From: a virus | IMG/VR virus record: IMGVR_UViG_3300036770_008700 | Span: 58,896 to 122,895 of that record | Direction: 5' to 3' (one strand) | DNA length: 64,000 bases | Shown here: in pieces, positions 1-54,379 of the stretch | Layout of the letters: every line of letters starts with the position of its first letter | Position numbering within the stretch: the stretch's first letter is position 1 | Program-made: the position numbers and the translations under genes | The notes under the pieces: generated by a model | What the model saw: the letters and a program-made list of their open reading frames with translations, nothing else | Told to the model about the DNA's origin: nothing | The model's database searches: none

Positions 1-1015
1 CTTTACCAACAAAGTAAACATGAATTTTTGTTGTGGCTGTTACAAGGTCTGGATTTAAAGGCGTCGGTATAGCATCTGGAAACAATGGAAGTAATGGTGA
101 GTTGTTGGCTACGCTAAACACACCAAAGTCAACAACGTCCAGCTTTGTTACTTTACCGTTTGCCATCTCAAACATTTGTCCAACAATTCTGTTGGTGATT
201 GTTGTTTCACTAAATCCAATTGTTGTGCGTTGTAGTTGAACACGCTCTTGAACTGTACCATTCGCAACAACAATGTTGTTAAACTCGTTCTTTAAATCAC
301 TGAATGTTAAGATCTGACGGTTACCGTTAATGGCACCTGCATAGTTTCCTATAGGTTGTGTAGCTGCGCTAGCACCATCTGCTCTATTAACAGGAGGCAA
401 ATAGGAAAAGTTGTCTATGTGAGATAACCTGCGGTCAAAGAAAAGGTTTTCTGTACCCTCTAAATTACCAACTGTTACACCTCCAGCTAATATAGAGTTG
501 TTTGTTATATGGTAGGTTACCGAACTAGTGGTAACGATAAACTCATCACGATTGGTATAAAGCAAGTCAGGACTTTTCAATATCATTAACTTGCGAAAGT
601 TGTTGGTGTTGTCTCCAAGAACCGTTGATGCAACAGAAGCAAAAGTCGCAGAACTTGATAGAATCTCTGGCGTGCCATTCTCCCAGCCCTTAACAAGTTG
701 TCCACCTATAACACGAACTGTACCTTGAGAGCTTGTAAAATAGTTGTTGTTGCCGGAAACTCTTAAACCACCACTATCATCTGCTTCAAAGGTAATTTGA
801 TCTTGTGGAAGTGGAAAAGCTTCAAAGGTTAAAATGGTTCTTATGCTGGAATCTGGAACTGTACCTGTGACGTATGTATCTAATGATGAATACACAGCAC
901 TAGAATCACCAAACGAATAAAATGCTGGGATAAACTGACCTGTTCCTAGTTGTCTTCTACCTTCATCTGTGATGATGGTATCTAAGATTCTTGTTTTGTT
1001 GTCAATAAGTCCCAT
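1..1015 (-). CDS. Phage virion structural protein, C-terminus cut by window edge
   Basis: Reading the minus strand from the ATG at 1015, the frame stays open to base 1, giving about 338 codons with no stop. The protein starts MGLIDNKTRILDTIITDEG, an opening I associate with virion structural proteins of large myoviruses. The rest is Ser/Thr/Asn-rich and beta-strand-like, without catalytic motifs. The start follows the upstream stop by a single base (TAAAATG), so the gene is translationally linked to the tail genes before it. The family assignment rests on recall of the N-terminus and on context. The C-terminal end lies outside the window. Confidence 0.8.
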   Translation of the reverse strand, partial: MGLIDNKTRILDTIITDEGRRQLGTGQFIPAFYSFGDSSAVYSSLDTYVTGTVPDSSIRTILTFEAFPLPQDQITFEADDSGGLRVSGNNNYFTSSQGTVRVIGGQLVKGWENGTPEILSSSATFASVASTVLGDNTNNFRKLMILKSPDLLYTNRDEFIVTTSSVTYHITNNSILAGGVTVGNLEGTENLFFDRRLSHIDNFSYLPPVNRADGASAATQPIGNYAGAINGNRQILTFSDLKNEFNNIVVANGTVQERVQLQRTTIGFSETTITNRIVGQMFEMANGKVTKLDVVDFGVFSVANNSPLLPLFPDAIPTPLNPDLVTATTKIHVYFVGK

Positions 1016-1016
1016 T

Positions 1017-2243
1017 TTATGTTCCTACTCTTGGATCATCGTCATGCCACGGTTGAGATGCACGATATTCCTTATCGAATATACCTGATCCATATGGATT
1101 AACTGTGTAAGCTGCTGTAACATTTGTAGATTGATATATTGATGCTGTAAGATAGTTGTTGCTTTCGCCGGATAAAGCACTTCCAGAGATGAAGTTTATA
1201 CCTCCATCTGTATCCATTGGTCCACCGATTTCTTTGTTGTTATATGTTTTTGTGTATGGCCTACCTTCAAGCATGTCTCTTGGTTGACCATAATGGTTTT
1301 GACGAAACACACAAGAAAAGTTGGTTGGAACACCGTTGTACAACCCATACTTCCAGCCTTCACAGTCTACTGTATAAGAAAGTTGATAGGAATAGTTTTC
1401 ATATGTACCAAGCGTTGAAGGCGCAGGAACAATTAAATCTACATAACTAGGCTTGATACCATAAACTAGTTTTCTGCCGAAATTATTCGTCATTGATCCG
1501 AAAAATAAGCCATAGGAATATTCATGCCAATCTTCTGGGAACAAAGGGTCAGTATATCCAGGGTCATAGTAACCAGGAATGTCCAGAAGGAGATCTAAGC
1601 TTTTTGTATATGGCGAGACTGTATCAATATATGCACTTCCAACTATGATACTCCTTTTGTTGAATGAAATATTTTGATTAGCAACTGTTTGAAATATGTT
1701 CTCAAATGAATAGTCTACTTCATAATAGTCAACTGTCAATTCGTATGTGTCACGATCAACACTTCTTGGTACGTAATTGTATTTCTTCTCAAACGGATAT
1801 GAATTAATCCATTCATAATTGCTAACAACACCGCTATCACTTCCAGTAATAGCTGGAAAAGAGCTAGTTGCGAATAAAATCCACAAAAAATCTACACCGG
1901 CCCCAGCAAAGTCTCGATCTACAGCTGGTTTACCTGCGCCATATGTGCCTGTTGCATGCAAACTGATGACATCAGGAACAAAACTATCTTCTATTTGTTG
2001 TGTGCTGCTTGCGATTCGCAAGTATCGAACTTCGCCGGACTTATAGAAAGGATGTGTCCGCTGGTATACGAAATCGCTTGCAACAGTCGCAGCTTTAAAT
2101 TCTTCCGAACCACTTACAACACTCCCAGAAACTGCTCTAAGCCATGTTGTATCACCCATTTTTGGTTTTGGTGGACCAACAAGAATATTATCTGAGTAGC
2201 TTTTATAGTAAGAGAATCTATTTTCTACGTCGTAGATTGGCAT
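1017..2243 (-). CDS. Putative tail/baseplate structural protein
   Basis: The product has 408 residues, is rich in Tyr, Ser, Asn and Asp, and has no signal peptide, membrane segment or catalytic motif that I can see. The composition and the many short beta-prone stretches fit a virion surface protein. It lies between two other long structural genes on the same strand, with gaps of 8 bases upstream and 1 base downstream, so it is part of the tail operon. I do not recognise a named family. A tail fibre or baseplate-attached decoration role is inferred from position only. Confidence 0.65.
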   Translation of the reverse strand: MPIYDVENRFSYYKSYSDNILVGPPKPKMGDTTWLRAVSGSVVSGSEEFKAATVASDFVYQRTHPFYKSGEVRYLRIASSTQQIEDSFVPDVISLHATGTYGAGKPAVDRDFAGAGVDFLWILFATSSFPAITGSDSGVVSNYEWINSYPFEKKYNYVPRSVDRDTYELTVDYYEVDYSFENIFQTVANQNISFNKRSIIVGSAYIDTVSPYTKSLDLLLDIPGYYDPGYTDPLFPEDWHEYSYGLFFGSMTNNFGRKLVYGIKPSYVDLIVPAPSTLGTYENYSYQLSYTVDCEGWKYGLYNGVPTNFSCVFRQNHYGQPRDMLEGRPYTKTYNNKEIGGPMDTDGGINFISGSALSGESNNYLTASIYQSTNVTAAYTVNPYGSGIFDKEYRASQPWHDDDPRVGT

Positions 2244-2251
2244 GATAGTAA

Positions 2252-4528
2252 CTATTCTCCAATCACTTCATGAACGCTGTTTGAAGAAAGAAGCTGATTT
2301 AATGTATCATGATATTCTTCAAGTTGATTTGTTTCTGGATTAAGTCTTAATGTTGATCCGTAAAGAATGATTTTGTTGACACCAGTTGTGAGAAAACTTA
2401 AACTGTTACTGCTTATAGCATTATCATTATCCCAAGGTAGTTGAAATCCGAATGTGAGCTTATCTGTTGGTAGCAATATATAAGGATTGGGTTTTGTATA
2501 TACGTTGTTGATTGCGATGGGATTATCATAGTTATTTATGAAATACGAGCCGTTGCCTATGATATTTGGTGAACTAAATGTGCTAACCCAATCCCGACCG
2601 TTCGCTGGTTCAATTTGATTTCTACCTGATAGATTAAGTGTTGGAATGACATATCTGCTGTTTGGGAACGAGATAGTAGAGCCAGAAAAAATATAAGCAA
2701 CGCCTTCTTCAAAAGCTACAGAGGATTTAACAGAAGAACTCATTATCCACTGGCCATTAAAAAATGTTCCATTATCATTCGGAATTATAAGTTCTCTTTT
2801 TAAGTATCCTGCACTGTCTCCAGAGGCTGAGAGAGCCATTTGAATGATATCAACCACATCATTTATGGTTGATGTTGTCAATGACGACGTAGTAAAAGTG
2901 GAAGGAGCACTGGAGCCACCAAATTGATACTGTATATTTTGAGGAAGAGAAGGCTTGTTTTGCAAATAAGGTCTTTGGTTTAAAAGAAAAAATGTCCAAA
3001 TAGCTGGAGAAAACGGCGATTTACCTGGTAAATAGATTGAACTGCTTATTTCTAAGCATATTTTTTCCAACATGAATGGTTCAGACAAATAATCACTCAT
3101 GTTTATTTGCTGTGAACTGGTTGCTTGGAATTTTGGATGATATGGAAAACCAAAATTGCTGATCTGCCTACCATACAAATTGTATTGCTGCGGTAAACCC
3201 GATACAACGCCACCATAATCAATCGAACTATGAAAACCAAAAGTTTGCTCATCTAAAGAATTCTTTAAACCGTTTAAATCTCCCGAGTAACTATCAATAC
3301 CTTTCCCTGTTCCTATGCCCTCATAAAGCTTTGTGTTAGGATTCCAATATCCCATTGGATAACTTCCAACACTTGCGCTCTTGTAAAGAGTAAATGTTTG
3401 TTCTGCGGCTGGAGTTATATCAATCTCTATTCTATTCTTGCTCCAAAGAGGCTGTTGAAATCCTAAACCTGTTGTTTCAACCAAGCTACCTGTTGCAAAA
3501 AACTGATAATTCGAACTTGTTACGTTCGATATTTTTGCATCAACTTCTGGATTTGCAAAGTCTTGAAAAGGTTCTATGTCTTGTCCTGGTGTAAACGTAA
3601 CAAACGTATCAGATACGTCTTTCTTCATACTCCCAGAAGCTACAATAGGTCGATTAAAGATCTCAGAACCAGAGAAGTATGGCTGTTTGTATAAGTCATT
3701 CTTAGCTTCTTCTGATAGTCCTGCATCAATAGCTTGAGGAGTCATAACAAGGGGATAAACAATACCCTTTACATCAACACTTGCAGTTGTTGGACCAAAA
3801 CCCATGTACTGCAAAGTTATAATGCCATTTACAGTTGAACTGCCAGTAACTTGAATTGATGTGTTTGTACTACCACTTAAACTAGAAGATATATCAGCTA
3901 GATTACTGTTCGTCGAATCATAAAACGTCACATAATTGTTTGTTGGTATCGTTCCAAAATCTGAAAACGTAACGTATGCGTTATTGGTATCTTTAAATTG
4001 AACATTTTGATTAACGACCAATGAGTATTGGTCGGTATATCTTGGAGAACGAAGTACGTTTACCGGTGTTCCTGCGGTTGACTGATAAATCGCACGATAT
4101 GCAAAGGTTCCTTCGAACGGTGCAGAAAAATTAACGTATGACCCAGTAACAGTTTGATCCTTTATGAAAGCATTTACAGTTGGTGTGTTAGGATTGCTTG
4201 TTAATTCTGTGATAACAACTGTGGGTAAACCAACAAAAGGATTGTCAAAAACAATACTATAAGACGAGGATGGATATCCCAGAGAACCAACAGTTACAAC
4301 CTTCTCTTCATAGTCTGGATAAGTTGTAACAAAAATTCCAGCATCTGTAACAGGTTGATTGAATCGTATAACCTTGTCATCATTAAAGAAAACAGGATAA
4401 CGACCTGTACGGTTATCACTTGATGTTCTCCATACTGTTGGAAAGCTACCTGTTGCATCTTGTCTTTGTGACAATAATACTTTGGAAGGTAATCCTCTCG
4501 CTCTTGTTCCTTTAAGAGTTCTTGCCAT
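2252..4528 (-). CDS. Putative large tail structural protein
   Basis: The product has 758 residues and opens MARTLKGTRARGLPSKVLLS. It is dominated by Ser, Thr, Gly, Asn and aromatic residues with repeated beta-type patterns, as in fibre and adhesin proteins. No enzyme motif is visible. It sits 8 bases from the downstream gene and 8 from the upstream one, inside the minus-strand tail operon. A tail fibre, whisker or baseplate periphery protein is the most likely role, but this comes from context and composition. Confidence 0.65.
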   Translation of the reverse strand: MARTLKGTRARGLPSKVLLSQRQDATGSFPTVWRTSSDNRTGRYPVFFNDDKVIRFNQPVTDAGIFVTTYPDYEEKVVTVGSLGYPSSSYSIVFDNPFVGLPTVVITELTSNPNTPTVNAFIKDQTVTGSYVNFSAPFEGTFAYRAIYQSTAGTPVNVLRSPRYTDQYSLVVNQNVQFKDTNNAYVTFSDFGTIPTNNYVTFYDSTNSNLADISSSLSGSTNTSIQVTGSSTVNGIITLQYMGFGPTTASVDVKGIVYPLVMTPQAIDAGLSEEAKNDLYKQPYFSGSEIFNRPIVASGSMKKDVSDTFVTFTPGQDIEPFQDFANPEVDAKISNVTSSNYQFFATGSLVETTGLGFQQPLWSKNRIEIDITPAAEQTFTLYKSASVGSYPMGYWNPNTKLYEGIGTGKGIDSYSGDLNGLKNSLDEQTFGFHSSIDYGGVVSGLPQQYNLYGRQISNFGFPYHPKFQATSSQQINMSDYLSEPFMLEKICLEISSSIYLPGKSPFSPAIWTFFLLNQRPYLQNKPSLPQNIQYQFGGSSAPSTFTTSSLTTSTINDVVDIIQMALSASGDSAGYLKRELIIPNDNGTFFNGQWIMSSSVKSSVAFEEGVAYIFSGSTISFPNSRYVIPTLNLSGRNQIEPANGRDWVSTFSSPNIIGNGSYFINNYDNPIAINNVYTKPNPYILLPTDKLTFGFQLPWDNDNAISSNSLSFLTTGVNKIILYGSTLRLNPETNQLEEYHDTLNQLLSSNSVHEVIGE

Positions 4529-4536
4529 GTTGTTAG

Positions 4537-5574
4537 TTATGCTCCACGATAATATCCACCAAATGCAACAGAATCCGTGCCATACAAAGCAACGTTACCA
4601 TATGTGAATCCTGCTGTTGCACTTTTTTGATCTCTGGTTTGTAAGTTTGAATCACTTAAGCTATAATTTTCACTAAAAAATGGTTGTATAATGGAACCAA
4701 CAACTTCACCGCTTAAATTAACAACACTGGAAGTAACTTGAACACTCAATAAATCGGTTGTGTTTGTTAGTTCTGGAAAGAATGCACCATTAGGTTGATC
4801 AACCCAAGGTTCCATTTTTGGCTGAACTGTTTGATCCATAACGGCGTTAGGTCTTGTATCAATCACTCCAACAACACTGCCATTGCTAGCTGTAACAAGT
4901 ATGTATCCAGCACCATATTCCAAAAACGAACGAACCATTTTAGGTTCTTCACGATAAACCATTTGCTCAACAATATCGGTACCGAATCTACGTTCATCAC
5001 CAACGTTACCAGCTTCTAGAAAAGCATAGACACCACGGATTTGCTCTTGTGGACTTTCGTTGGTTGCAAGACGAAAAGGCATAGGAAACGGTTCTATAAT
5101 CGATTCCTCATAAAACTGTGGGCCACCATTCATGTAAATCGGATAAACATCATCTGCGTTCAAATAACCTTCAACAATAAGTCCAGATTCAATCAAGTAG
5201 TTTGTTGTTTTACTTATTCTTTTTCCATCAACCAATATAGTTCCGTCAACACCAACATGTGAATCGTTGAATATGGTATTGGAAGTGTATTGGATATAGT
5301 CTCCAGCTTGACCATATGTGATAAATGCAGACTGATGAGTTAACTCACCATTTGGCTTAACTTCATGGTCTTGTGTTCCATCTTCAAATATAGCCTTGAT
5401 TTGATTAGAGCTGTATATGTCTTGTATTGTTCGTAGGTTGACGCCTTCACGATATATGTCGATTTCTTTGGTTGGCATTCCTCCAGACACAACAAGGTTA
5501 CGATTGGTTTTACCGTAATAGTTTGCTATGTCAAAAAACGGTTTAAAAGATGTATCGTTAACCCAGTATGGCAT
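4537..5574 (-). CDS. Putative virion structural protein
   Basis: The product has 345 residues and opens MPYWVNDTSFKPFFDIANYYG. It has mixed alpha/beta character, no transmembrane segment and no catalytic motif. It lies between two very large tail proteins with 8- and 12-base gaps. The tail operon position makes it a probable baseplate or tail-tip component. I do not recognise a family. Confidence 0.6.
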   Translation of the reverse strand: MPYWVNDTSFKPFFDIANYYGKTNRNLVVSGGMPTKEIDIYREGVNLRTIQDIYSSNQIKAIFEDGTQDHEVKPNGELTHQSAFITYGQAGDYIQYTSNTIFNDSHVGVDGTILVDGKRISKTTNYLIESGLIVEGYLNADDVYPIYMNGGPQFYEESIIEPFPMPFRLATNESPQEQIRGVYAFLEAGNVGDERRFGTDIVEQMVYREEPKMVRSFLEYGAGYILVTASNGSVVGVIDTRPNAVMDQTVQPKMEPWVDQPNGAFFPELTNTTDLLSVQVTSSVVNLSGEVVGSIIQPFFSENYSLSDSNLQTRDQKSATAGFTYGNVALYGTDSVAFGGYYRGA

Positions 5575-5586
5575 GGTTGGTTATCC

Positions 5587-8500
5587 TTAGTATTTCTTAA
5601 GTACACCAGTGAAAAGTTGCAGCAAAAGAACTTCTTTTTGACGGTTTCTATTGTTTTCTCCAAGATAGATATCCTCAAAGTGATATTCAAGCTTTGGACG
5701 TTCGAGCATGTGAGATTGAATCACATAGTTGATACCTTGAAACTTTGTTTTTCTTGGTAACAACTGTGCAATAAATCTACCCATGTTTGTGTTAAACCAT
5801 TGATAAAAATCAAAGAAACCACGAACATTCAACTTGTCTGTTAAACGGTTGAAATATATGTCTCTTAAGGATTCTAAATCTGGATAATCTGGAGAAAACA
5901 TCATGTTGGGGTCACCAAGTATGTTGTTAAACACCTCAAGAGAAGAAAACATTCCAATCATGTCTTGGTTAAGAGAATCAACAATAGAGAAATCAATGCT
6001 GAACTTTGCATTGTCTTGTGGGATTTGTTCTTGTTGAATTTCGTACACTGGAGCCATTTGAGAGTACATTCCAACGTCTTGGTCTACGAAGTCCAAGCTT
6101 TGATAGCTTCTTACACGAACCTTTTGATCGGTAACAGCTTCGTCAAAGTTTGGTGAGATAAACGAGTAATAAAAACGTTCGGGAACAATTACGTCTTTAG
6201 AGTTTGGAAACAATGTACCAGTAGCATGTAGCTCATGCTGAGAGAAATCAAATATTTGAATCCCGCCTGTTACATCAGTTTTTAGCTCGATTTGATCGGT
6301 ATTCCAATCAGCTCTTAGTTTCTCAAATGAACCGCTTCTAAAGTTTTCGAAGTTAAAGTTAACTCTTGGGTCTTCAACACCAAGAGACTTGTAATCTCTA
6401 ACGTGTTCTCTCCATTCATCTAGTGTTAAAGCTTTGCTCCACCAACGTAGCTGTGTAACTTTACCATCAAACGTTTGAAGTGAGTTTTCATTAACAAAAT
6501 CTGTGGTTGTTGCAATTGTTGTGCTACCACTACCAATAGCTAAAAATGAACCTGATGTGTTGTATGTTGCACTGCGAACTTGCCATAAGTTGTTTGCTGA
6601 GTTTGTTCCAAAGTTATCATCAAACAAAGAACTGGTAACATATTCTTCAACAATACTTCCAAGGTTATTTCTACCAATGCGAAGAAAGTATGAAGAAGAA
6701 ACTTGGCTTATGGAGTCTCCACGTTCTCTACCAAAGCTGATGTTCCAAGCTTGACCACTCAATATGTCTGGTGTTGTTATGCTCATGGTAAGAGCGGTTG
6801 CACCAATCGTAGAGTTTGGACGAACATATAACGTTACACCAGAACCACTTGTAGCATACAAGTTAGCTAACACGTTTTCTGTATTCCCAGAACCAGAACT
6901 CACAATGCGTACAAGACTTTGAATAGAAGATGTACTAGGCAAACCAGCGTAGTTGTATATGCCTTCGTATGTCCATGAACCACTGGTAAATAAACCATCG
7001 TTAACGTCTGTGGTATCTATATTATGACCTGTAGTTGGATCTACAACGAACGTTCCCACAGGTGTTGGATAGCCTGGTTCTACTCTACTTCCAGAAAGAT
7101 AAGGAGACTTAAAGTAACCACCGCTAACAAAGCTTAACGCTGTACCTATTTCATTTCTTGACTCTCTTAAAGAATCAAGAGTGCGTTGTGTTGGCCCACC
7201 ATATTCCTTAAATCTAAAGATGTTGTCACCATCAATGCCAACAGCACGTAACAAAGCTTTAATACTGTGAATGGTACCTTTGCTTTTAAGAATATCGTTA
7301 GCGTTAATCAATATTCTGCGCCAGATTTGGTTTTGAAGGTATTGAAGAGTGTATTCGCTGTTAACAATGTTTGGTGTTACGTTGTTACCATTAACAAACT
7401 GACTAACATCTGAACCAATAAACAAAGGTGGAAGATCCAAACCATAAAAGTCAGCAAGTTGTTTTAGGAATGCATCTGGCACTGTATCATATTGATCGTA
7501 ATCAACATGTCTTATTGTTGAAAAGGCATCAAGAAACAACTTGATTTCATCAAAAAAGCTTGCCCACATATAAAGCAAGCTTAGTAAAGTTTGTGTACTA
7601 CCAAGAGCTACTGTGTTTGGTTCTGAACCATATTGCAGCTCATTGATTTGACCTTCTTCGGAGTCTAGTGCAGCTTGTTCTTGTCCGTATGTAAAGTATT
7701 GTTTTGGTACAAGTTTAGTAATAATGTTTGGATTAAAAGAGTCGTATGAAGCTCCGTCAGATATAAGGTTTTCACGGTATGTTATGACTTCTGGTTGATC
7801 TGGAAACAATATCGGGCACATTCTTATATCTTCGTAAATCATTGGGCTGGAGCCCATGTAAGAACCAGTGTTAATGTTTCTTACCTTAAGAGTGTTTAAT
7901 GCATAGCTGTTTAGGGTACCATGCATACCTTTACCAGAGTGATCCAACACAAGGTTGCTTGCTGATCCACTAGGCTCATTAAACTTAAAGTAAAGAGCTA
8001 AATCTGGTTCAGCATATATGCTGCTGCTTTGGTATGATATCATTTCATTTGTTGAAACAATTCGTTTAAAGTAACGCAGTTCATCCAAAGCACCAGAAAA
8101 GGTTGTTTCTGGGACAAATAGTGGAGAAGTTATGTTGCTACCGGTACCTACGAACAAGCTTGCTGTTGCAAAGTTCAAGCTTTTTATTGTTACTTGGCTA
8201 CTTGTTGCAACCAATGAACCGCTAACATAGCCGTATAACTGGTTGACTCCACTTGTACGATCCCAAGTAAACGTAACAGGTGTCCAATTGCCTTTAACAA
8301 GGCTTATAGAGGCCGACATTACATCTGTTGACCCAGACACCACAAAGAAAGTTAAGGGCGCTGTAGCCCCCGTAGAACTCGATAGAAAGCATCCAAAGCC
8401 ATGCTGTTCGGTTCCTGTTACTGTGTTAAGTTTTTGAAATACTATTTGGTTGGTGTTTGAGCCTGTAGCAGCATAGATTTGAAACTGAAAGCTTATTGAA

Positions 8501-42030: not shown

Positions 42031-42317
42031 TAATAATAAGTATCTTTTACTAAATGAAAGTCTTTGCTTCCTGATTCATGTAAACTAATCCATCCAACAA
42101 TTCCACACGTCGTAAGAATCTTTTTATAGTTTCCATCTTCTTCAATCAAAACAACATAACTGCCTTTTATTGCAAGACGAGTTTTGTCACAAAACTCAGC
42201 CATAAACTGATTCCAGGTAGCCAAATCAAAATTTCTACATTTAGCAGCTAAATCCTTCGAAGGATAAACAACCCAACTATTAGAGTTAATCAAATACATC
42301 CCACCAATTTTATTCAT
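42030..42317 (-). CDS. Small SH3-like accessory protein
   Basis: The product has 95 residues. It starts KIGGMYLINS and has WVVYPSKDLAAK, a GSYVVLIEEDG strand and a CGIVGWISLHE turn. These blocks match the neighbouring downstream gene in order and spacing. Its start overlaps the mnmA stop by four bases, so it is co-translated with the tRNA enzyme. Function unknown. Confidence 0.6.
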   Translation of the reverse strand: MNKIGGMYLINSNSWVVYPSKDLAAKCRNFDLATWNQFMAEFCDKTRLAIKGSYVVLIEEDGNYKKILTTCGIVGWISLHESGSKDFHLVKDTYY

Positions 42318-43345
42318 GAAATCACTCCACCTCCAATAACTTCATCACCACGATAAAACACACAACTCTGACCTTTAGCTGCTCCAAACACAGCACTGCC
42401 AAGAGTAACGTGCAAACCATTTTCAGAAGCCCTAATAGCCTCTACAGTGACAGGAGATGAGTGATACCGGGTAACTGCCACAACCCCATTTACATCGCCT
42501 TCAAAATCAATCCTAGCGTTTGTAAGAAACATGTTGCGAGTGCTAGCTTGCTCCCGTGAACCAACTACCACGTTTCCAGTAGAAGGTACAACGTTAAGCA
42601 CATAACGACTACCACCACTACCACCAACACTAGCTCGTTGACCAGTAACATACTTCGTAAATCCGTTGTGCCTGCCTACAACGTTTCCATCAACATCAAC
42701 AAAATCACCAGAAGAGGAAACAACATCGTTTCTATCCAAAAACTCTTGCTTGGTTCCTCCACCAAGAAAACACAAATCCGTTGAATCCTTCTTGTCAGCA
42801 ACGTGTAAGCCAAACTCACGGGCAAGAGCCCTAGTGTCATCTTTGCTATCAAAATCTCCAAGGGGAAACAAAAGTCTTGAAACAACCGCTGCTGGAGTCT
42901 CCCATAGAAAGTAACTCTGATCCTTCTTGAGATTTTTTGCTTTCGTGATTCGTCCATTTCTCACCCTCGCATAATGTCCAGTAGCAATATACTCACAACC
43001 AAAATGATTGGCAACAGCAGCCAATACAGGAAGCTTAATCGTGCTATTGCAAGTTACACATGGATTGTATGCAATACCTTGCTTGGCACCATCAATGTAA
43101 CGATCAATAACATTCTTCTTAAATACCTGCTTCCAGTTTGTTACAAGATATTCAATGCCCATCTTGTCGCAAACCATGCGAGCATCACGAATGTCTTTGA
43201 ATGTGCAGCAACCTTCACCTTCATCACTGTCAAGAGTTTCCAGAAGCTTTAGTGTGTAACCATATACTTCATGCCCTTGTCGCTTAAGCAATCCAGCAAC
43301 AACAGCAGAATCAACTCCACCAGAAAGACCAACAAGAACCCTCAT
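42314..43345 (-). CDS. mnmA: tRNA-specific 2-thiouridylase
   Basis: The product has 343 residues, compared with about 368 in E. coli MnmA. All key parts are present: the PP-loop SGGVDS at 8-13; the first catalytic Cys in NPCVTCN (C99, with C96 nearby); ATGHYARV at 121-128; the KDQSYFLW segment; the second Cys in DLCFLG (C192); and a C-terminal beta domain ending VIGGGVIS. The family thiolates U34 of Lys, Glu and Gln tRNAs using a sulfur relay. A GGAAG ribosome-binding site precedes the ATG. A phage copy is uncommon and suggests control of translation. The sulfur donor proteins would come from the host. Confidence 0.92.
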   Translation of the reverse strand: MRVLVGLSGGVDSAVVAGLLKRQGHEVYGYTLKLLETLDSDEGEGCCTFKDIRDARMVCDKMGIEYLVTNWKQVFKKNVIDRYIDGAKQGIAYNPCVTCNSTIKLPVLAAVANHFGCEYIATGHYARVRNGRITKAKNLKKDQSYFLWETPAAVVSRLLFPLGDFDSKDDTRALAREFGLHVADKKDSTDLCFLGGGTKQEFLDRNDVVSSSGDFVDVDGNVVGRHNGFTKYVTGQRASVGGSGGSRYVLNVVPSTGNVVVGSREQASTRNMFLTNARIDFEGDVNGVVAVTRYHSSPVTVEAIRASENGLHVTLGSAVFGAAKGQSCVFYRGDEVIGGGVIS

Positions 43346-47284: not shown

Positions 47285-47839
47285 TTAATCTTGAAACCAT
47301 TCTTGAGTGTTCTGCTCAAAGTCAGTATGGACATACCGGTCATACCGGTTTACCATGCTGTTTGTTACAAACTTATCATTATCTGGCATAAGGTAAATCC
47401 ACGCTTCAACAACATCTGTGCCATTATACACAGAAACAAGTTGTCGTGTATACAATACACCATTCGACTCAAGCATATCAATTTGTTTCAACGTTTGATT
47501 ATCAATCTCGTACAACTCACCCGTTATTGAATAAGAATCGTCAGGGCCAATAGTCACAGCAGGAAACGAACCATGCAAAGGATGCATACAAAAATTGTGC
47601 TGCACTGTTACAGCGGTTCCAATAAACGTTGAATGTTCCAGAAACCTATGATTACCGAAACCACGCTTGAGCGAACCATACACAAAAACCATGTGCTTAG
47701 ATGGATACATGGCTTCAACCTCTGCATCGCTCATACTAAGCATCATTTCCATGGCTTCTTGGGTATGCTCGTCACACCACGAAAGAAACTCAGAATCGTT
47801 TGACAACTCTTGCATCAACTGCTCGTCGTCGTTCAACAT
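47285..47839 (-). CDS. Gamma-glutamylcyclotransferase-like protein
   Basis: From the ATG at 47839 the product has 184 residues. The C-terminal part has the GGCT/AIG2 fold signature VFVYGSLKRG (YGSL at about 54-57), GTAVTV, and DMLESNGVLYTRQLVSV with the conserved acidic pair. A 50-residue acidic helical N-terminal part is extra compared with usual family members. GGCT-like proteins cyclise gamma-glutamyl groups, but many phage members have no proven substrate. A longer frame to 47938 has no ribosome-binding site. Confidence 0.75.
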   Translation of the reverse strand: MLNDDEQLMQELSNDSEFLSWCDEHTQEAMEMMLSMSDAEVEAMYPSKHMVFVYGSLKRGFGNHRFLEHSTFIGTAVTVQHNFCMHPLHGSFPAVTIGPDDSYSITGELYEIDNQTLKQIDMLESNGVLYTRQLVSVYNGTDVVEAWIYLMPDNDKFVTNSMVNRYDRYVHTDFEQNTQEWFQD

Positions 47840-47975: not shown

Positions 47976-49010
47976 CTAGTCTAGCAAAAGACTTTTTCCA
48001 GTTTTGCCAAGCTTCTCAACCTTAACTGCTTCAACTTCACTAGCATTCCCAAGATCAATGCTCGCAACAGTTTTGTGACTGTCATCACCATTTACCATAA
48101 TAAATGCTGCATCCATTAGGGTGTTGATGTAATCTTCATACTCTGGATTGCGTAAAACTCTGCTCCCAAACTCGCTCTTGTAAAACTTCTCGTCAACAAC
48201 AAATGCTCCAGTTTTATTGTCAATCACTTGAAAATATTTCCACTGAGAAGCACCTTCTACGATAATACGCTTACCTTCAAACACAACTGGGTCTTTACAC
48301 TTAGCACAAAAGTCACGAAGCTCGTCAAAAAGGTTTTCATCCTCTCTCACTCCCTTGCCAAAGTGAATCTCAAAACTAACCTCACGCCATGGTCTTGCAA
48401 CCTTATTCTTAATAGTCTTACAAGTGACGTTAATCCCAATCACAGCTTCTTTACCGTTAATGCTTTGCTTGATTTGTTGACCACCTGTAAGCTTGATACG
48501 TGTTGAAGCATGATATGGAATAGCCATACCACCAGGAGTGGTTGAAGGGTCACCGTACATTGTGTTGTGTGAAAGAATACCGTTGCTTAGATAAGAATGT
48601 TCTCCTTCAACTTCAATGTCAGCAATATCAGTGAGTTCATCCTTAGATTCTATCACAAATTCACGCCACCCAGAGTCGGTTAGAACCACATACGAAGTAA
48701 ATATATTTTTTAGCAGACCAACTTCCTTGTACTTAGCTGTATCTGATTCTTTGGATTTGACAAAAATTTTGTGATCTGGGGAACAAGATAAACTCCTACC
48801 ATTCGATGATACAACCATATGTTCAGCTTGTTGTTTCCTAACAATGTTTAGGACAAGGTTCCACTCTTCTTTTCCTGTTTTTGCATTTAGTGTTTTTACC
48901 TCATAGCCGAGATGGCGCACATCTATTGGTTGGTTAACCTGCATTTTATCGAATTCGAATCCTAATTGACTGAACAGTGATCTCATTGTATTTTGCATTT
49001 TTTTATCCAT
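47976..49010 (-). CDS. recA: C-intein plus C-terminal half of RecA
   Basis: The product has 344 residues. Residues 1-149 are the C-terminal intein piece: a block-B-like SCSPDHKIF with a His, a TDIADIEVEGEHSYLSNG block F, and the terminal ILSHN with His-Asn before the +1 residue Thr150. Residues 150-344 are the RecA C-terminal core and tail, starting TMYGDPSTTPGG as in RecA proteins. It has no Walker A motif, which is on the partner gene at 49922-50647. Trans-splicing would join residue 225 of the partner to Thr150. The ATG at 49010 overlaps the endonuclease gene by 28 bases, and a terminator follows. Confidence 0.93.
   Translation of the reverse strand: MDKKMQNTMRSLFSQLGFEFDKMQVNQPIDVRHLGYEVKTLNAKTGKEEWNLVLNIVRKQQAEHMVVSSNGRSLSCSPDHKIFVKSKESDTAKYKEVGLLKNIFTSYVVLTDSGWREFVIESKDELTDIADIEVEGEHSYLSNGILSHNTMYGDPSTTPGGMAIPYHASTRIKLTGGQQIKQSINGKEAVIGINVTCKTIKNKVARPWREVSFEIHFGKGVREDENLFDELRDFCAKCKDPVVFEGKRIIVEGASQWKYFQVIDNKTGAFVVDEKFYKSEFGSRVLRNPEYEDYINTLMDAAFIMVNGDDSHKTVASIDLGNASEVEAVKVEKLGKTGKSLLLD
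48564..49010 (-). other. C-intein coding segment (149 residues)
   Basis: The reading frame from 49010 to 48564 codes for intein residues only; the last two are His and Asn (CAC AAC), then ACA for the +1 Thr of RecA. The size is large for a C-intein, because the break lies right after block A, leaving nearly all of the intein fold on this piece. Confidence 0.9.
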
Positions 49011-49888
49011 TCCTTGAGCGTCTTTTCAACGTTCTGTATGTTATTGACTATATCATGTTCCCAAATAGGAATCACGATATATCCAAGATTGTTTGCCAAT
49101 TCTTTTTTTACTAAATCTCGTTTTATCGACGCAGTTTGTACCGTATTAATTGGTCCATTTGGATATTTTCTTGAACTACAATGCCAATAATCTCCTTGTA
49201 CCTCTAATAGTAAATTTGTTCCTTTTATATGAAAATCAAACCGATATTTTCTTCTATCGGGTAGCTTGAATTCTTGAGTGTATTCAATATTATTTGAGCG
49301 TAGTAAATCTCTTACTGCACCTTCTGGCATGGAGGCAACACCATCATCGGTCGATAGGCACTGGATGTCCTTGTCTCGTTTCCCAAGATTGGTCAAAATA
49401 AGCTTAACTGTTTTATGATAAATTTTGGTTTGTGAGGCGATTGTGCGATAGGCCATCCTATTTTTGGCCATTCTAACTATCTCAGCAACGATCTCCGGTT
49501 CAATGTCTCGTTCTAGCCATTTGCACTGCCATGGGATTCCATTCGGATAAAGCTGCTGCTTATAACGTTTATAAACTCTTGTATTTAGAGGAAGTGCCTT
49601 TTGTACAAAACCATCAGGCATTCCAAGTTCAAGTAACTCTTTCATTTTCATAAGCTCAGAATCACTAAGAACCCTAAGACCAGCTATACCAATATTCGCA
49701 CGCCGTTGCGCAGAATAGGTTCTACCAATCATTGTTCGTCGTCGTTTTTCAATACAAACTTCTGATTGAGCTTTTCCAACCCTGGATTTGTGGAAACACT
49801 CCTTTGAGCAAAAAATACGTTTTGTACTCTTGTGCTTAAACAAGTTTTTGCATTGCTTACATGTATGTTGTGCCATACTAGTAAGCAT
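48983..49888 (-). CDS. Free-standing homing endonuclease, Vsr/EDxHD-like, with zinc finger
   Basis: The product has 301 residues. The N-terminus has a Cys4 zinc finger (C10, C13, C27, C31). A helix-turn-helix-like middle (about 75-180) is followed by a nuclease domain related to Vsr-type enzymes: FDFHIKGTNLLLEVQGDYWH (D218, E229, D233, W235, H236), a KRD segment near 256-258, and IPIWEHDI at 273-280. It sits exactly between the two recA gene pieces, 33 bases after the N-piece stop, and overlaps the C-piece start by 28 bases. Endonucleases of this family are linked to fractured genes. An ATG at 49876 is an alternative start. Confidence 0.88.
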   Translation of the reverse strand: MLTSMAQHTCKQCKNLFKHKSTKRIFCSKECFHKSRVGKAQSEVCIEKRRRTMIGRTYSAQRRANIGIAGLRVLSDSELMKMKELLELGMPDGFVQKALPLNTRVYKRYKQQLYPNGIPWQCKWLERDIEPEIVAEIVRMAKNRMAYRTIASQTKIYHKTVKLILTNLGKRDKDIQCLSTDDGVASMPEGAVRDLLRSNNIEYTQEFKLPDRRKYRFDFHIKGTNLLLEVQGDYWHCSSRKYPNGPINTVQTASIKRDLVKKELANNLGYIVIPIWEHDIVNNIQNVEKTLKEWIKKCKIQ

Positions 49889-49921
49889 GAACCAACCACG
49901 ATCTTTTGTATTGGTAGACGG

Positions 49922-50647
49922 TTATTGCTTAGAAATACAGCGATATTCGATAAAAGTATCGGGGTGGGCGCACCCGATCTTAACTCTTTGCTGATTTAAT
50001 AGAACCAAACAAACGTTCTTATCACCGATAATGTCAGTAATCTTACGGAAACCCTTGGAAAGAACACGGGCAGCTAGACCAATTGTATTCTGGTCATAAT
50101 CACCCTCAATCTCTGCCTTGGGCGCAGAAGCAGCAACAGAATCCCAAATAACTGTAACAGGAACATCTGCTTTAAGATTTCTTGCCTTTTCAATCGTACT
50201 TTCAATAACCTTGAAAATGTCTTCAATGCAAGTTTCTTGAATAAAGACAAAACGTTTACGAATGTCGATACCAAGACCTTCAAGGTTTTCAACCGATGTA
50301 GCGTTCTCGGTATCAATATAAACAACGATACCATTCATACGTTGAGTTGATTTAGCAATTTCATATGCGATGTGTGATTTACCAGAGCTAGGTGGTCCTT
50401 GGATTTCTACGATACGTCCTTCTGCTACACCACCATTTCGGCGGTTAGAGATAATGTAGTCGAGTTGTTTTGAACCCGTAGATATCCAGCGTTTAACAGT
50501 TGTTGGAGCTTCATCGGTTCCAAGGTTGAATGCGATTTTATTTCCTGCTTCTTTGTTGATTTGCTTGATTAGTTCAGCAGAAAAGTCTGTGTCTTCATTT
50601 GCTGCTGGTTCATCTAATAAAGGCTTTTTAGTTGATTTGATTGCCAT
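49922..50647 (-). CDS. recA: N-terminal half of RecA with 16-residue N-intein
   Basis: The product has 241 residues. Residues 1-225 are RecA-like: Walker A GPPSSGKS at 84-91, YIDTENA (the RecA adenine/Mg region), Walker B VIWDS at 166-170 and NQQR of loop L2 at 218-221. At Cys226 the intein begins and runs only 16 residues, CAHPDTFIEYRCISKQ, to the TAA stop. The break in the RecA frame is exactly after KIG. Together with the downstream piece, splicing would give a 420-residue recombinase. The start has a GGAGAG ribosome-binding site. Role: homologous recombination and replication fork repair. Confidence 0.93.
   Translation of the reverse strand: MAIKSTKKPLLDEPAANEDTDFSAELIKQINKEAGNKIAFNLGTDEAPTTVKRWISTGSKQLDYIISNRRNGGVAEGRIVEIQGPPSSGKSHIAYEIAKSTQRMNGIVVYIDTENATSVENLEGLGIDIRKRFVFIQETCIEDIFKVIESTIEKARNLKADVPVTVIWDSVAASAPKAEIEGDYDQNTIGLAARVLSKGFRKITDIIGDKNVCLVLLNQQRVKIGCAHPDTFIEYRCISKQ
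49925..49972 (-). other. N-intein coding segment (16 residues)
   Basis: The segment encodes 16 residues starting with Cys (TGC at 49970-49972) and ending at the codon before the stop TAA at 49922-49924. It contains the block A pattern C-x3-DT only. This is one of the shortest N-intein types; split inteins with short N-parts of about 16-25 residues have been described from lake metagenomes. Confidence 0.9.
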
Positions 50648-52652: not shown

Positions 52653-53261
52653 CTATTGAACAGAAACAGCCTTTTCTTTGCCTTTTCCTTGAACACAAGC
52701 AGCCTTAACAGCCTGTGAAAGAATAACAGAAATCCAAGGTTCACTCTGGGTTGGAAGATCTTCTCTCGCTGCTTTATTCCCAACCACAGACATAGCATAC
52801 CATTCATCAATATCAATCTCAACGTTATTCTTGGAAAGAATAAAAAGACTTAGTTGAGATACTGGAATATGCTGAAAACGTTCAGCAACGTTGTAATAAA
52901 TACCAAGCTTGTCACGATGCCAATCTGATGCGTTATCTACGTAATATTCTTTGTTTTCCGTTCCAACCTTGCCAATGTCGTGAAACAAAGAACAGAGAAT
53001 AACGCTTGAAGTAGCAACAGAATCCGTAAGATTGTATACTTGACGAAGCTTGGCGACGTTCTGCAACACTCGAAGAGAATGCTCCACAAGCCCACCGGGA
53101 TGACAACAAGTGTAATCCCGCTTTGTTGAAGCAGGTGCAAGCATGATCCGTTCTGAATTGTTGTCAACATATGATAGAATCGCTCCTCCCTTAGCACCAA
53201 GCTTCGCTACCTGAGTCTTGAAAAGCTCAAAGTTCTTGATAATGATTTGTTCCTGGTTCAT
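52653..53261 (-). CDS. HD-domain phosphohydrolase
   Basis: The product has 202 residues. Metal-binding HD residues are HPGGLVEHSLRV (H54, H61) and LFHDIGK (H94, D95). These proteins often act on nucleotides or RNA, or as metal-dependent nucleases; specificity is not clear. It starts in an ATGA overlap with the polymerase gene, a common position in phage replication operons. Confidence 0.8.
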   Translation of the reverse strand: MNQEQIIIKNFELFKTQVAKLGAKGGAILSYVDNNSERIMLAPASTKRDYTCCHPGGLVEHSLRVLQNVAKLRQVYNLTDSVATSSVILCSLFHDIGKVGTENKEYYVDNASDWHRDKLGIYYNVAERFQHIPVSQLSLFILSKNNVEIDIDEWYAMSVVGNKAAREDLPTQSEPWISVILSQAVKAACVQGKGKEKAVSVQ

Positions 53262-54379
53262 CTTGAAAACCCTTTGTCTGAGGACATGTAAAACGTAGTT
53301 GATTCTAAATTCTTAATGTCTACACTCCCCAGCTTACATAAACCATTAATCAAGCTAAAACAATTCTCGTGAATATCCAAAATCAATGCATCGTGAAGAA
53401 TGAATATCGGAACAATATACTCCTGATTATCTAGCTCTTCAACATACTGCAATATATTCAAGAAACCTAACATGGCAACGTCTACCGCTGTGCTCTGAAC
53501 ATAATGATTTACAAGAGTATGAGCTGTTTCTGTTTTAACTCTTCTACCATAAAAATTTGTGATATACCTAAATCCAGTTTCTTTCCATTGCTCATATAGC
53601 TTTGCTCTCAAACCTTCCAAACCAAACCATTCAGATATCTCTCCAACAACAGATTCTAAATCCCTAACGTTGGGTATACGTTGACGTAATGACTCTATTC
53701 CTGCTCCATATAGCTCAGATAACACAATCTTTTTTACCGCATCACGATCTACTTCTGGATTATCTTGGAACAATGAAAGCTTAACAGCATCATATATGTC
53801 TCGTTGTATCTCTTCTCTTGGTTGTGTTCCACTAGTAGACAACAACACTCTTGGTTCCAGTGATTTATAGTCAAGAGATACAATAGCTCCTTTATTCTTC
53901 CAACGGCTTTCTAACACGCTTCTATAAACCTTTGGAAGATGTAGCAACATTGGTCCAGAAACAGTCTTAAAACGTCCTGTAACGTTGCTAACACGGTCAT
54001 ATTCAACTGTTTGAGCATAACCATCTACATTAGGTTTAAACGATTGAATATGTCCTGTTGAATCCAGTTGAGAATATTGGTGGTATATTTCAATGTTAAT
54101 CTTTGCTGGTTGAATATATTCAAACACTTTTTCTGTTGGAACATATACGTTTTCCAGGTAAGACAAATCAAGATTATTGAGTTCTTGCTTGAACCTTTCT
54201 TGATCGTTCTCAATCGCTCTACAAAGCTTTTCTGGTAAGGTTAAATGCCAAGGTACACCAGAGCCTTGCAACCTTGGAGACAAGCCCTTATAAGCCCGTA
54301 TAAAGCGTTCTGGGGCTTGTTGAGGTTGCTTAACAAGGTATAGCTGCGAAACAAGTTTATCAATATAATCCATGACCAT
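53258..54379 (-). CDS. Family-A DNA polymerase core without exonuclease domain
   Basis: The product has 373 residues, less than half of full-length Pol I-type proteins (about 900) and smaller than T7 polymerase (704). Visible motifs are: GRFKTVSGPMLLHLP (residues 135-149, motif 1); SLDYKSLEPRVLL at 168-180 (motif A, D170); RDAVKKIVLSELYGAG at 212-227 (O-helix, motif B); NHYVQSTAVDV at 291-301; and LHDALILDIHE at 328-338 (motif C). In motif C, the usual HDE is HDA, so the Glu after Asp330 is replaced by Ala331. There is no 3'-5' exonuclease domain. It could pair with a separate exonuclease gene outside the window. Alternative start ATG at 54373. Confidence 0.85.
   Translation of the reverse strand: MVMDYIDKLVSQLYLVKQPQQAPERFIRAYKGLSPRLQGSGVPWHLTLPEKLCRAIENDQERFKQELNNLDLSYLENVYVPTEKVFEYIQPAKINIEIYHQYSQLDSTGHIQSFKPNVDGYAQTVEYDRVSNVTGRFKTVSGPMLLHLPKVYRSVLESRWKNKGAIVSLDYKSLEPRVLLSTSGTQPREEIQRDIYDAVKLSLFQDNPEVDRDAVKKIVLSELYGAGIESLRQRIPNVRDLESVVGEISEWFGLEGLRAKLYEQWKETGFRYITNFYGRRVKTETAHTLVNHYVQSTAVDVAMLGFLNILQYVEELDNQEYIVPIFILHDALILDIHENCFSLINGLCKLGSVDIKNLESTTFYMSSDKGFSR

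Follow-up and report, generated by a model that had tools for sequence, protein, structure and literature searches.

In fractured genes, as the work of Dassa in 2009 is cited in PMC12350094 and PMC13014065, split inteins are combined with Vsr-like homing endonucleases. A split at the position called S1 is defined by an N-terminal intein part (IntN) of about 15 to 16 residues, and VidaL is a documented 16-residue S1 case (PMC13014065). Group I introns are established carriers of EDxHD endonucleases (PMC3943268, PMC3984707) and are themselves established in recA of Bacillus (PMC3984707), and homing in phages depends on UvsX/RecA (PMC2988022). Here, we analyze a broken recA gene in virus record IMGVR_UViG_3300036770_008700, which is 122,895 bases long; the stretch under study, referred to as the window, comprises 64,000 nucleotides (bases 58,896-122,895 of the record). 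In our reading, this fractured recA carries a class 1 mobile split intein in the DNA-binding L2 loop, with its cut at S1 and the gene of an EDxHD homing endonuclease in the cut, for which we estimate a probability of about 0.92.

Results

Three consecutive genes on the minus strand of the window encode an N-terminal piece of RecA (N-piece), an endonuclease, and a C-terminal piece of RecA (C-piece). Their features are as follows.

50647-49922, minus strand: N-piece open reading frame (ORF), RecA residues 1-225 ending in KIG, then CAHPDTFIEYRCISKQ and stop codon TAA
49973-50647, minus strand: N-terminal extein (N-extein), residues 1-225 of a RecA/UvsX-like recombinase with Walker A GPPSSGKS and last residues KIG (Pfam RecA, E 2e-36; phrog_97 UvsX-like, E 1.5e-50)
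49925-49972, minus strand: IntN, 16 residues CAHPDTFIEYRCISKQ with nucleophile Cys1, then TAA at 49924-49922 (aligned to contiguous inteins of the same site)
48983-49876, minus strand: EDxHD/Vsr-like homing endonuclease gene; the ORF opens at 49888, and its second in-frame ATG at 49876 is the likelier start, judged from relatives
49011-49015, minus strand: AAGGA within the endonuclease 3' end, a possible ribosome-binding site of the C-piece (comparable placement in other split loci)
49010-47976, minus strand: C-piece ORF, C-terminal part of the intein up to SHN, then TMYGDP and the remaining RecA
48983-48998, minus strand: 16-nucleotide overlap of the endonuclease 3' end and the C-piece start, counted from the likely start of the C-piece
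48564-48998, minus strand: C-terminal intein part (IntC) with block B SPDH, block F DIADIEV...HSYLSNG, and block G HN (TIGR01443 above cut-off; alignment with relatives)
47976-48563, minus strand: C-terminal extein (C-extein), RecA from T(+1)MYGDP, 195 residues, stop TAG (Pfam RecA, E 3e-13)

The Pfam RecA profile is matched at positions 6-195 in the N-piece and at positions 194-261 in the C-piece, and therefore no part of RecA is missing. Consistent with the proposal of a first-pass annotation, made from the DNA letters alone, that two minus-strand genes encode one RecA, the homology stops and restarts at the junction. The closest family of this recombinase is the UvsX-like phrog_97, and the joined product has the RecA core with the Walker motifs and the L2 loop. 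A single conserved enzyme is thus distributed over two co-oriented genes with one break point, at which complementary split-intein halves are found with a free-standing endonuclease gene between them. Besides the split gene, no further recA was found in a search of the whole 122.9-kb record. The possibility of an intron around recA in the window was rejected, because no RNA family matches there. The same three-gene arrangement occurs in L006 and L007 (loci in related sequences are designated by such numbers), two contigs from other metagenomes, with endonucleases that are 47% identical.

Both intein junctions are in frame, as the first-pass annotation had read them. Thus, the TGC codon of Cys1 (49972-49970) follows immediately 3' of AAG ATC GGG (KIG) and opens a run of 16 codons before TAA, and the His-Asn/Thr junction reads CAC AAC ACA at 48569-48561. 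The 149 residues that had been assigned to the C-intein hold for a start at the first ATG of the ORF (49010); the second in-frame ATG (48998) corresponds to the start position in relatives, and the C-intein therefore probably comprises 145 residues. TIGR01443, a model of intein C-termini, scores above its cut-off. Cys1, block B SPDH, block F DIADIEVEGEHSY, block G HN, and Thr+1 have all been kept across twelve lineages at this site. With the class 1 residue set complete (Cys1, SPDH, HN, and Thr+1), we infer a class 1 intein with predicted splicing activity.

As a stand-in for the two halves in the window, we used a structural model of the naturally contiguous homologue L003 (AlphaFold, predicted local distance difference test [pLDDT] 86.6). 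Its first match in the PDB is the Aes123 PolB1 intein and its second the VidaL crystal structure, both of which are atypically split. The model has a strand at residues 17-22, then a short strand at 29-32 and a helix at 33-39, and the window IntN aligns to residues 11-26. On this basis, the 16-residue IntN spans beta strands 1 and 2 with the break in the loop ahead of helix 1, which in the model puts the split at the atypical S1 position, directly after beta strand 2, and agrees with the initial description of the intein as atypically split. The accompanying statement that UvsX-type genes include known cases of very short N-parts could not be substantiated: no paper was found that joins a split intein with UvsX, and the documented case is VidaL.

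A search for the intein in 84,980 bacterial and archaeal species, each represented by a single genome, gave no match. Among 50,697 phage records, the C-piece as query gave RecA-like matches only, with partial coverage; in the two annotated phage loci that were examined (Kumao and QdP_Psa3), one single recombinase coding sequence is present at the C-piece match. Two more scans for extra inteins of this set returned nothing new.

The endonuclease ORF (49888-48983, stop TGA) is unbroken and represents an intact gene of 300 codons, with an N-terminal CxxC...CxxxC zinc-ribbon-like segment and a C-terminal nuclease domain. In a Foldseek search with an endonuclease model made with five sequences, I-Bth0305I (3R3P) ranked best for the C-terminal domain (TM-score [TMt] 0.80), the Neisseria homologue 3HRL next, and then Vsr (1CW0 and 1VSR), so that a Vsr-like fold accounts for the top matches and the gene is what it had been taken for. 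A profile search likewise placed 3R3P first (E 0.012). Four residues (E189, D218, H236, and D258 in the numbering of the 301-residue ORF) are invariant among five aligned endonucleases of this site (site A) and by inference correspond to the E-D-x-H-D motif. The nonsynonymous-to-synonymous rate ratio (dN/dS) of about 0.10 for L009 and L037, the sole close pair available, points to purifying selection on the endonuclease. The endonucleases at this site all share homology, most of them over near-full length (E as low as 1e-101 for those of other fractured loci), and no second copy of the window endonuclease was found in the record. A hairpin 5' of the endonuclease gene (-13.3 kcal/mol, z -1.5) was dismissed as not above chance.

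The comparison with a related phage that has an unbroken recA, which had been suggested as a check, was possible with L005. This sequence from another metagenome has an unbroken recA with KIGVMYGDP at the exact insertion point in a colinear gene neighborhood. Its N-extein is 98.7% identical to that of the window and the joined flanks align base for base, the join itself reading GGG/ACA in the window and GGC/GTG in L005. Among the fetched relatives, KIG is followed by Val in all 29 distinct empty alleles and by Thr in all 13 filled ones (Fisher p 4e-11, a value that ignores kinship of the alleles). Since Thr is the nucleophile for splicing, the element appears to alter a residue of its host protein and would leave Thr behind in spliced RecA. 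The dN/dS is 0.03-0.04 for the N-extein (0.04 versus L005) and 0.07-0.16 for the C-extein (0.16 versus L005), indicating strong purifying selection on both RecA halves, which argues that the gene is not dead.

Two stretches close to the site deserve mention in their own right. Window positions 48442-48533, beginning 31 bases downstream of the insertion, comprise 92 bases identical to L005 in genes that are otherwise about 79% identical (permutation P < 5e-5), with the greatest divergence directly at the site; this is possibly a trace of gene conversion. In L004, the last 15 bases ahead of the insertion are those of the window and the preceding 45 those of the empty allele L005, a pattern that looks like a short co-conversion tract.

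Seven split loci contain endonuclease sequence (the window, L006, L008, L009, L010, L011, and L015), and in each of them the 3' end of the endonuclease gene shares 16-41 nucleotides with the beginning of the C-piece. In most of these loci, a purine-rich stretch within the endonuclease gene resembles a ribosome-binding site; it is weakest in L009 and L010, and the two endonuclease remnants (L008 and L010) retain precisely the 3' end. These overlaps and retained ends suggest that the start site of the RecA C-piece lies within the endonuclease gene, so that complete loss of this gene would be costly unless the halves re-fuse. This translational overlap, like the intact and contiguous alleles and another fractured gene elsewhere in the record (see below), had not been part of the first-pass annotation.

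Across relatives, the same site is found in several states. It is empty in L005 and many other relatives; it is filled by a contiguous mini-intein without endonuclease in L003, L004, L012, and L111-L113; it is fractured with an endonuclease in the window, L006/L007, L009, L011, L037, and L015-L019; it is split with a decayed endonuclease remnant in L008 and L010; and it is split with an almost zero spacer in L014. The N-extein proteins of the window, L003, L004, and L005 are 98-99% identical, while their sites are fractured, contiguous, contiguous, and empty, respectively. The inteins of the window and L003 are only 45% identical (dN about 0.63, versus 0.03 for the N-extein). Near-identical recA genes in differing states with such divergent inteins therefore do not fit a turnover by simple vertical descent and show, as judged from these alignments, intein gain or replacement at this site.

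With respect to direction, 200 intein bootstrap trees required three (rarely four) changes to contiguous from a split ancestor and five to eight changes to split from a contiguous one. The smaller number favors repeated re-fusion after endonuclease loss, in trees with weak inner branches and a small sample, and mobile endonucleases that invade repeatedly could produce a pattern that mimics this signal.

Insertions in recA can also be stacked. Five contigs (L015 at 582-4884, likewise L016-L019) have the fractured intein at KIG/T and a second split intein after TMYGDPT, so that the middle piece consists of intein-TMYGDPT-intein with a middle extein of seven residues. Further downstream, they carry an insertion that resembles the group I introns of relatives and encodes a separate endonuclease of this family. 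RecA of these phages would be a natural case in which two successive trans-splicing events are needed, and in novelty this stacked recA goes beyond the arrangement in the window. L004 (2627-5909) combines a contiguous intein at KIG/T with, seven residues on, a fractured intein that has a different EDxHD endonuclease. L055 (5676-6806) has the downstream intron alone; it is inserted at TTPGG/, which lies 12 residues beyond the intein site, and its group I match in Rfam (E 4.5e-8) is under the gathering score. The TTPGG/ intron is also present in recA of L014, L045, and L049, and an EDxHD endonuclease of the same family accompanies it in L055, L014, and L049. With three insertion sites, the L2 loop of these phage recA genes is a hotspot.

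A second fractured gene, for DNA polymerase III alpha, lies in the same record outside the window (L107, G000:C1:1-16000, positions 2389-7370). It is broken at ..FLVKSKK/CLLPTTYV.. and ..FFLTHN/SFPDIDSDF.., a canonical split with an N-intein of about 100 residues; one piece matches Pfam PF07733 at positions 3-98 and the second piece at 99-260. Between the pieces, and overlapping both, is a different endonuclease gene that encodes 320 residues with multiple zinc fingers and has a weak Phage_endo_I match. The record of L010 (G004, 297,894 bases) shows more intein signals, at about 202485-210809 and 259535-260503, both close to its split recA and farther off, and represents an intein-rich phage.

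Near recA, the window contains genes for gamma-glutamyl cyclotransferase and QueC-like queuosine biosynthesis (47288-47821 and 42317-43345). An ORF of 373 residues at 53258-54379, which adjoins an ORF of 1142 residues without family, has a partial family A DNA polymerase match (PF00476 94-345, slightly under the cut-off) and is possibly a fragmentary or highly divergent polymerase.

Discussion

The three genes are probably transcribed together, given their common strand, the short gap, and the overlap. Translation of the C-piece would start inside the endonuclease 3' end by translational coupling, as the overlaps in seven of seven loci suggest. IntN (16 residues) and IntC (about 145 residues), in which the necessary residues are present, would then associate for trans-splicing, with Cys1, the block B His, the penultimate His, Asn, and Thr+1 yielding RecA with ...KIG-TMYGDP.... 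The endonuclease may cut the intein-less KIG-V recA of coinfecting phages, after which recombination repair would introduce the entire element and, with it, the Val-to-Thr change. Such repair needs a recombinase of the RecA/UvsX type, and the element thus occupies the gene on which its own spread depends; it is located in the L2 loop of the very recombinase that is needed for phage homing, and a defective element would cost the phage its RecA.

Several observations weigh against the reading of an active mobile split intein. The Pfam intein model PF14890 gives a match (E 8e-7) that is significant yet under the curated cut-off, and IntN is very short, whereas splicing rates of inteins of this kind vary. 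For the integrity of the endonuclease active site, the basis is five sequences and a moderate-confidence model (pLDDT 73), and the target of the enzyme is putative; splicing, cleavage, and transcription are predictions here. In addition, vertical descent of the window intein with those of L003/L004 is not rejected by a tree test (approximately unbiased [AU] p 0.145), and because of this the claim of independent gain rests on divergence.

Conceivably, the RecA halves could reassemble without splicing and leave the intein remnants inert, as for the endonuclease-split nrdA of phage Aeh1; products of endonuclease-split phage genes are known to reassemble noncovalently (PMC2988022). We regard this as very unlikely here. 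The splicing residues are all retained across lineages in which intein identity is 30-60%, Thr+1, required for splicing only, is present in every one of the 13 filled alleles, and the contiguous inteins of relatives must splice out of the same site for a normal RecA L2 loop. Even less credible is a decaying or dead locus in which the break inactivated recA and the phage relies on RecA of its host. Although host RecA could stand in and the record has no second recA, strong purifying selection acts on both pieces, the endonuclease and intein are intact, and the layout recurs in independent phages. An assembly or frameshift artifact might be suspected in one single metagenomic record, but the pieces are separated by an intact gene of 300 codons, and L006, L007, L009, L011, and L015-L019, contigs from other metagenomes, share the layout. 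Together with the TIGR01443 match and the flanks that align with L005, this leaves the artifact the least probable of the three and in practice refuted; the first-pass annotation had named such an error as what would overturn its proposal.

With a mobile split intein as the preferred reading of the window, the states in relatives can be put in a historical order, to which we give somewhat less than even odds. In this tentative scheme, the split state with endonuclease would be ancestral at the site, and contiguous mini-inteins would have arisen at least three times via endonuclease loss and re-fusion. Decayed loci would have retained the endonuclease 3' end for the start of the C-piece, and sister phages would have stacked insertions up to a RecA with two trans-splicing events, a seven-residue middle extein, and a group I intron. 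If true, this would be the reverse of the usual account, in which split inteins derive from contiguous ones. Since five states (empty, contiguous, fractured, decaying, and tandem) occur at one site, the origin and loss of split inteins become directly testable at one position in one phage gene, instead of being inferred across distant families. Short-N split inteins and a natural two-intein RecA are, moreover, candidate tools for protein ligation.

Compared with known systems, the locus resembles the fractured genes of the Dassa type in that a phage enzyme gene is broken by a split intein and harbors a free-standing Vsr/EDxHD endonuclease gene between the pieces. It differs in that the gene is recA, the split is at S1 rather than at the canonical position, and the site is also found empty, contiguous, and in tandem. 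No description of a fractured recA was found in the literature, with the enzyme list of Dassa 2009 unchecked for recA; it is thus fair to speak of a known kind of arrangement in a gene and at a site for which we found no description. VidaL shares the IntN length and the split position, and its structure (6VGV) is the second-best match of the L003 model (TMt 0.79), but identity in the structural alignment is only 17%. A phmmer search with the C-piece did not return VidaL at E values up to 1, and by this search the intein does not belong to the VidaL family. The host gene of VidaL is presumably a T4-like helicase. I-Bth0305I has the same nuclease fold (TMt 0.80), but is borne by an RNA intron, which we take to be a group I intron in a Bacillus phage recA, and not by a split intein. 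Mycobacterial RecA inteins likewise reside in RecA but are contiguous and bacterial, and the site of the M. tuberculosis RecA intein is about 54 residues further on in NF007072 profile coordinates.
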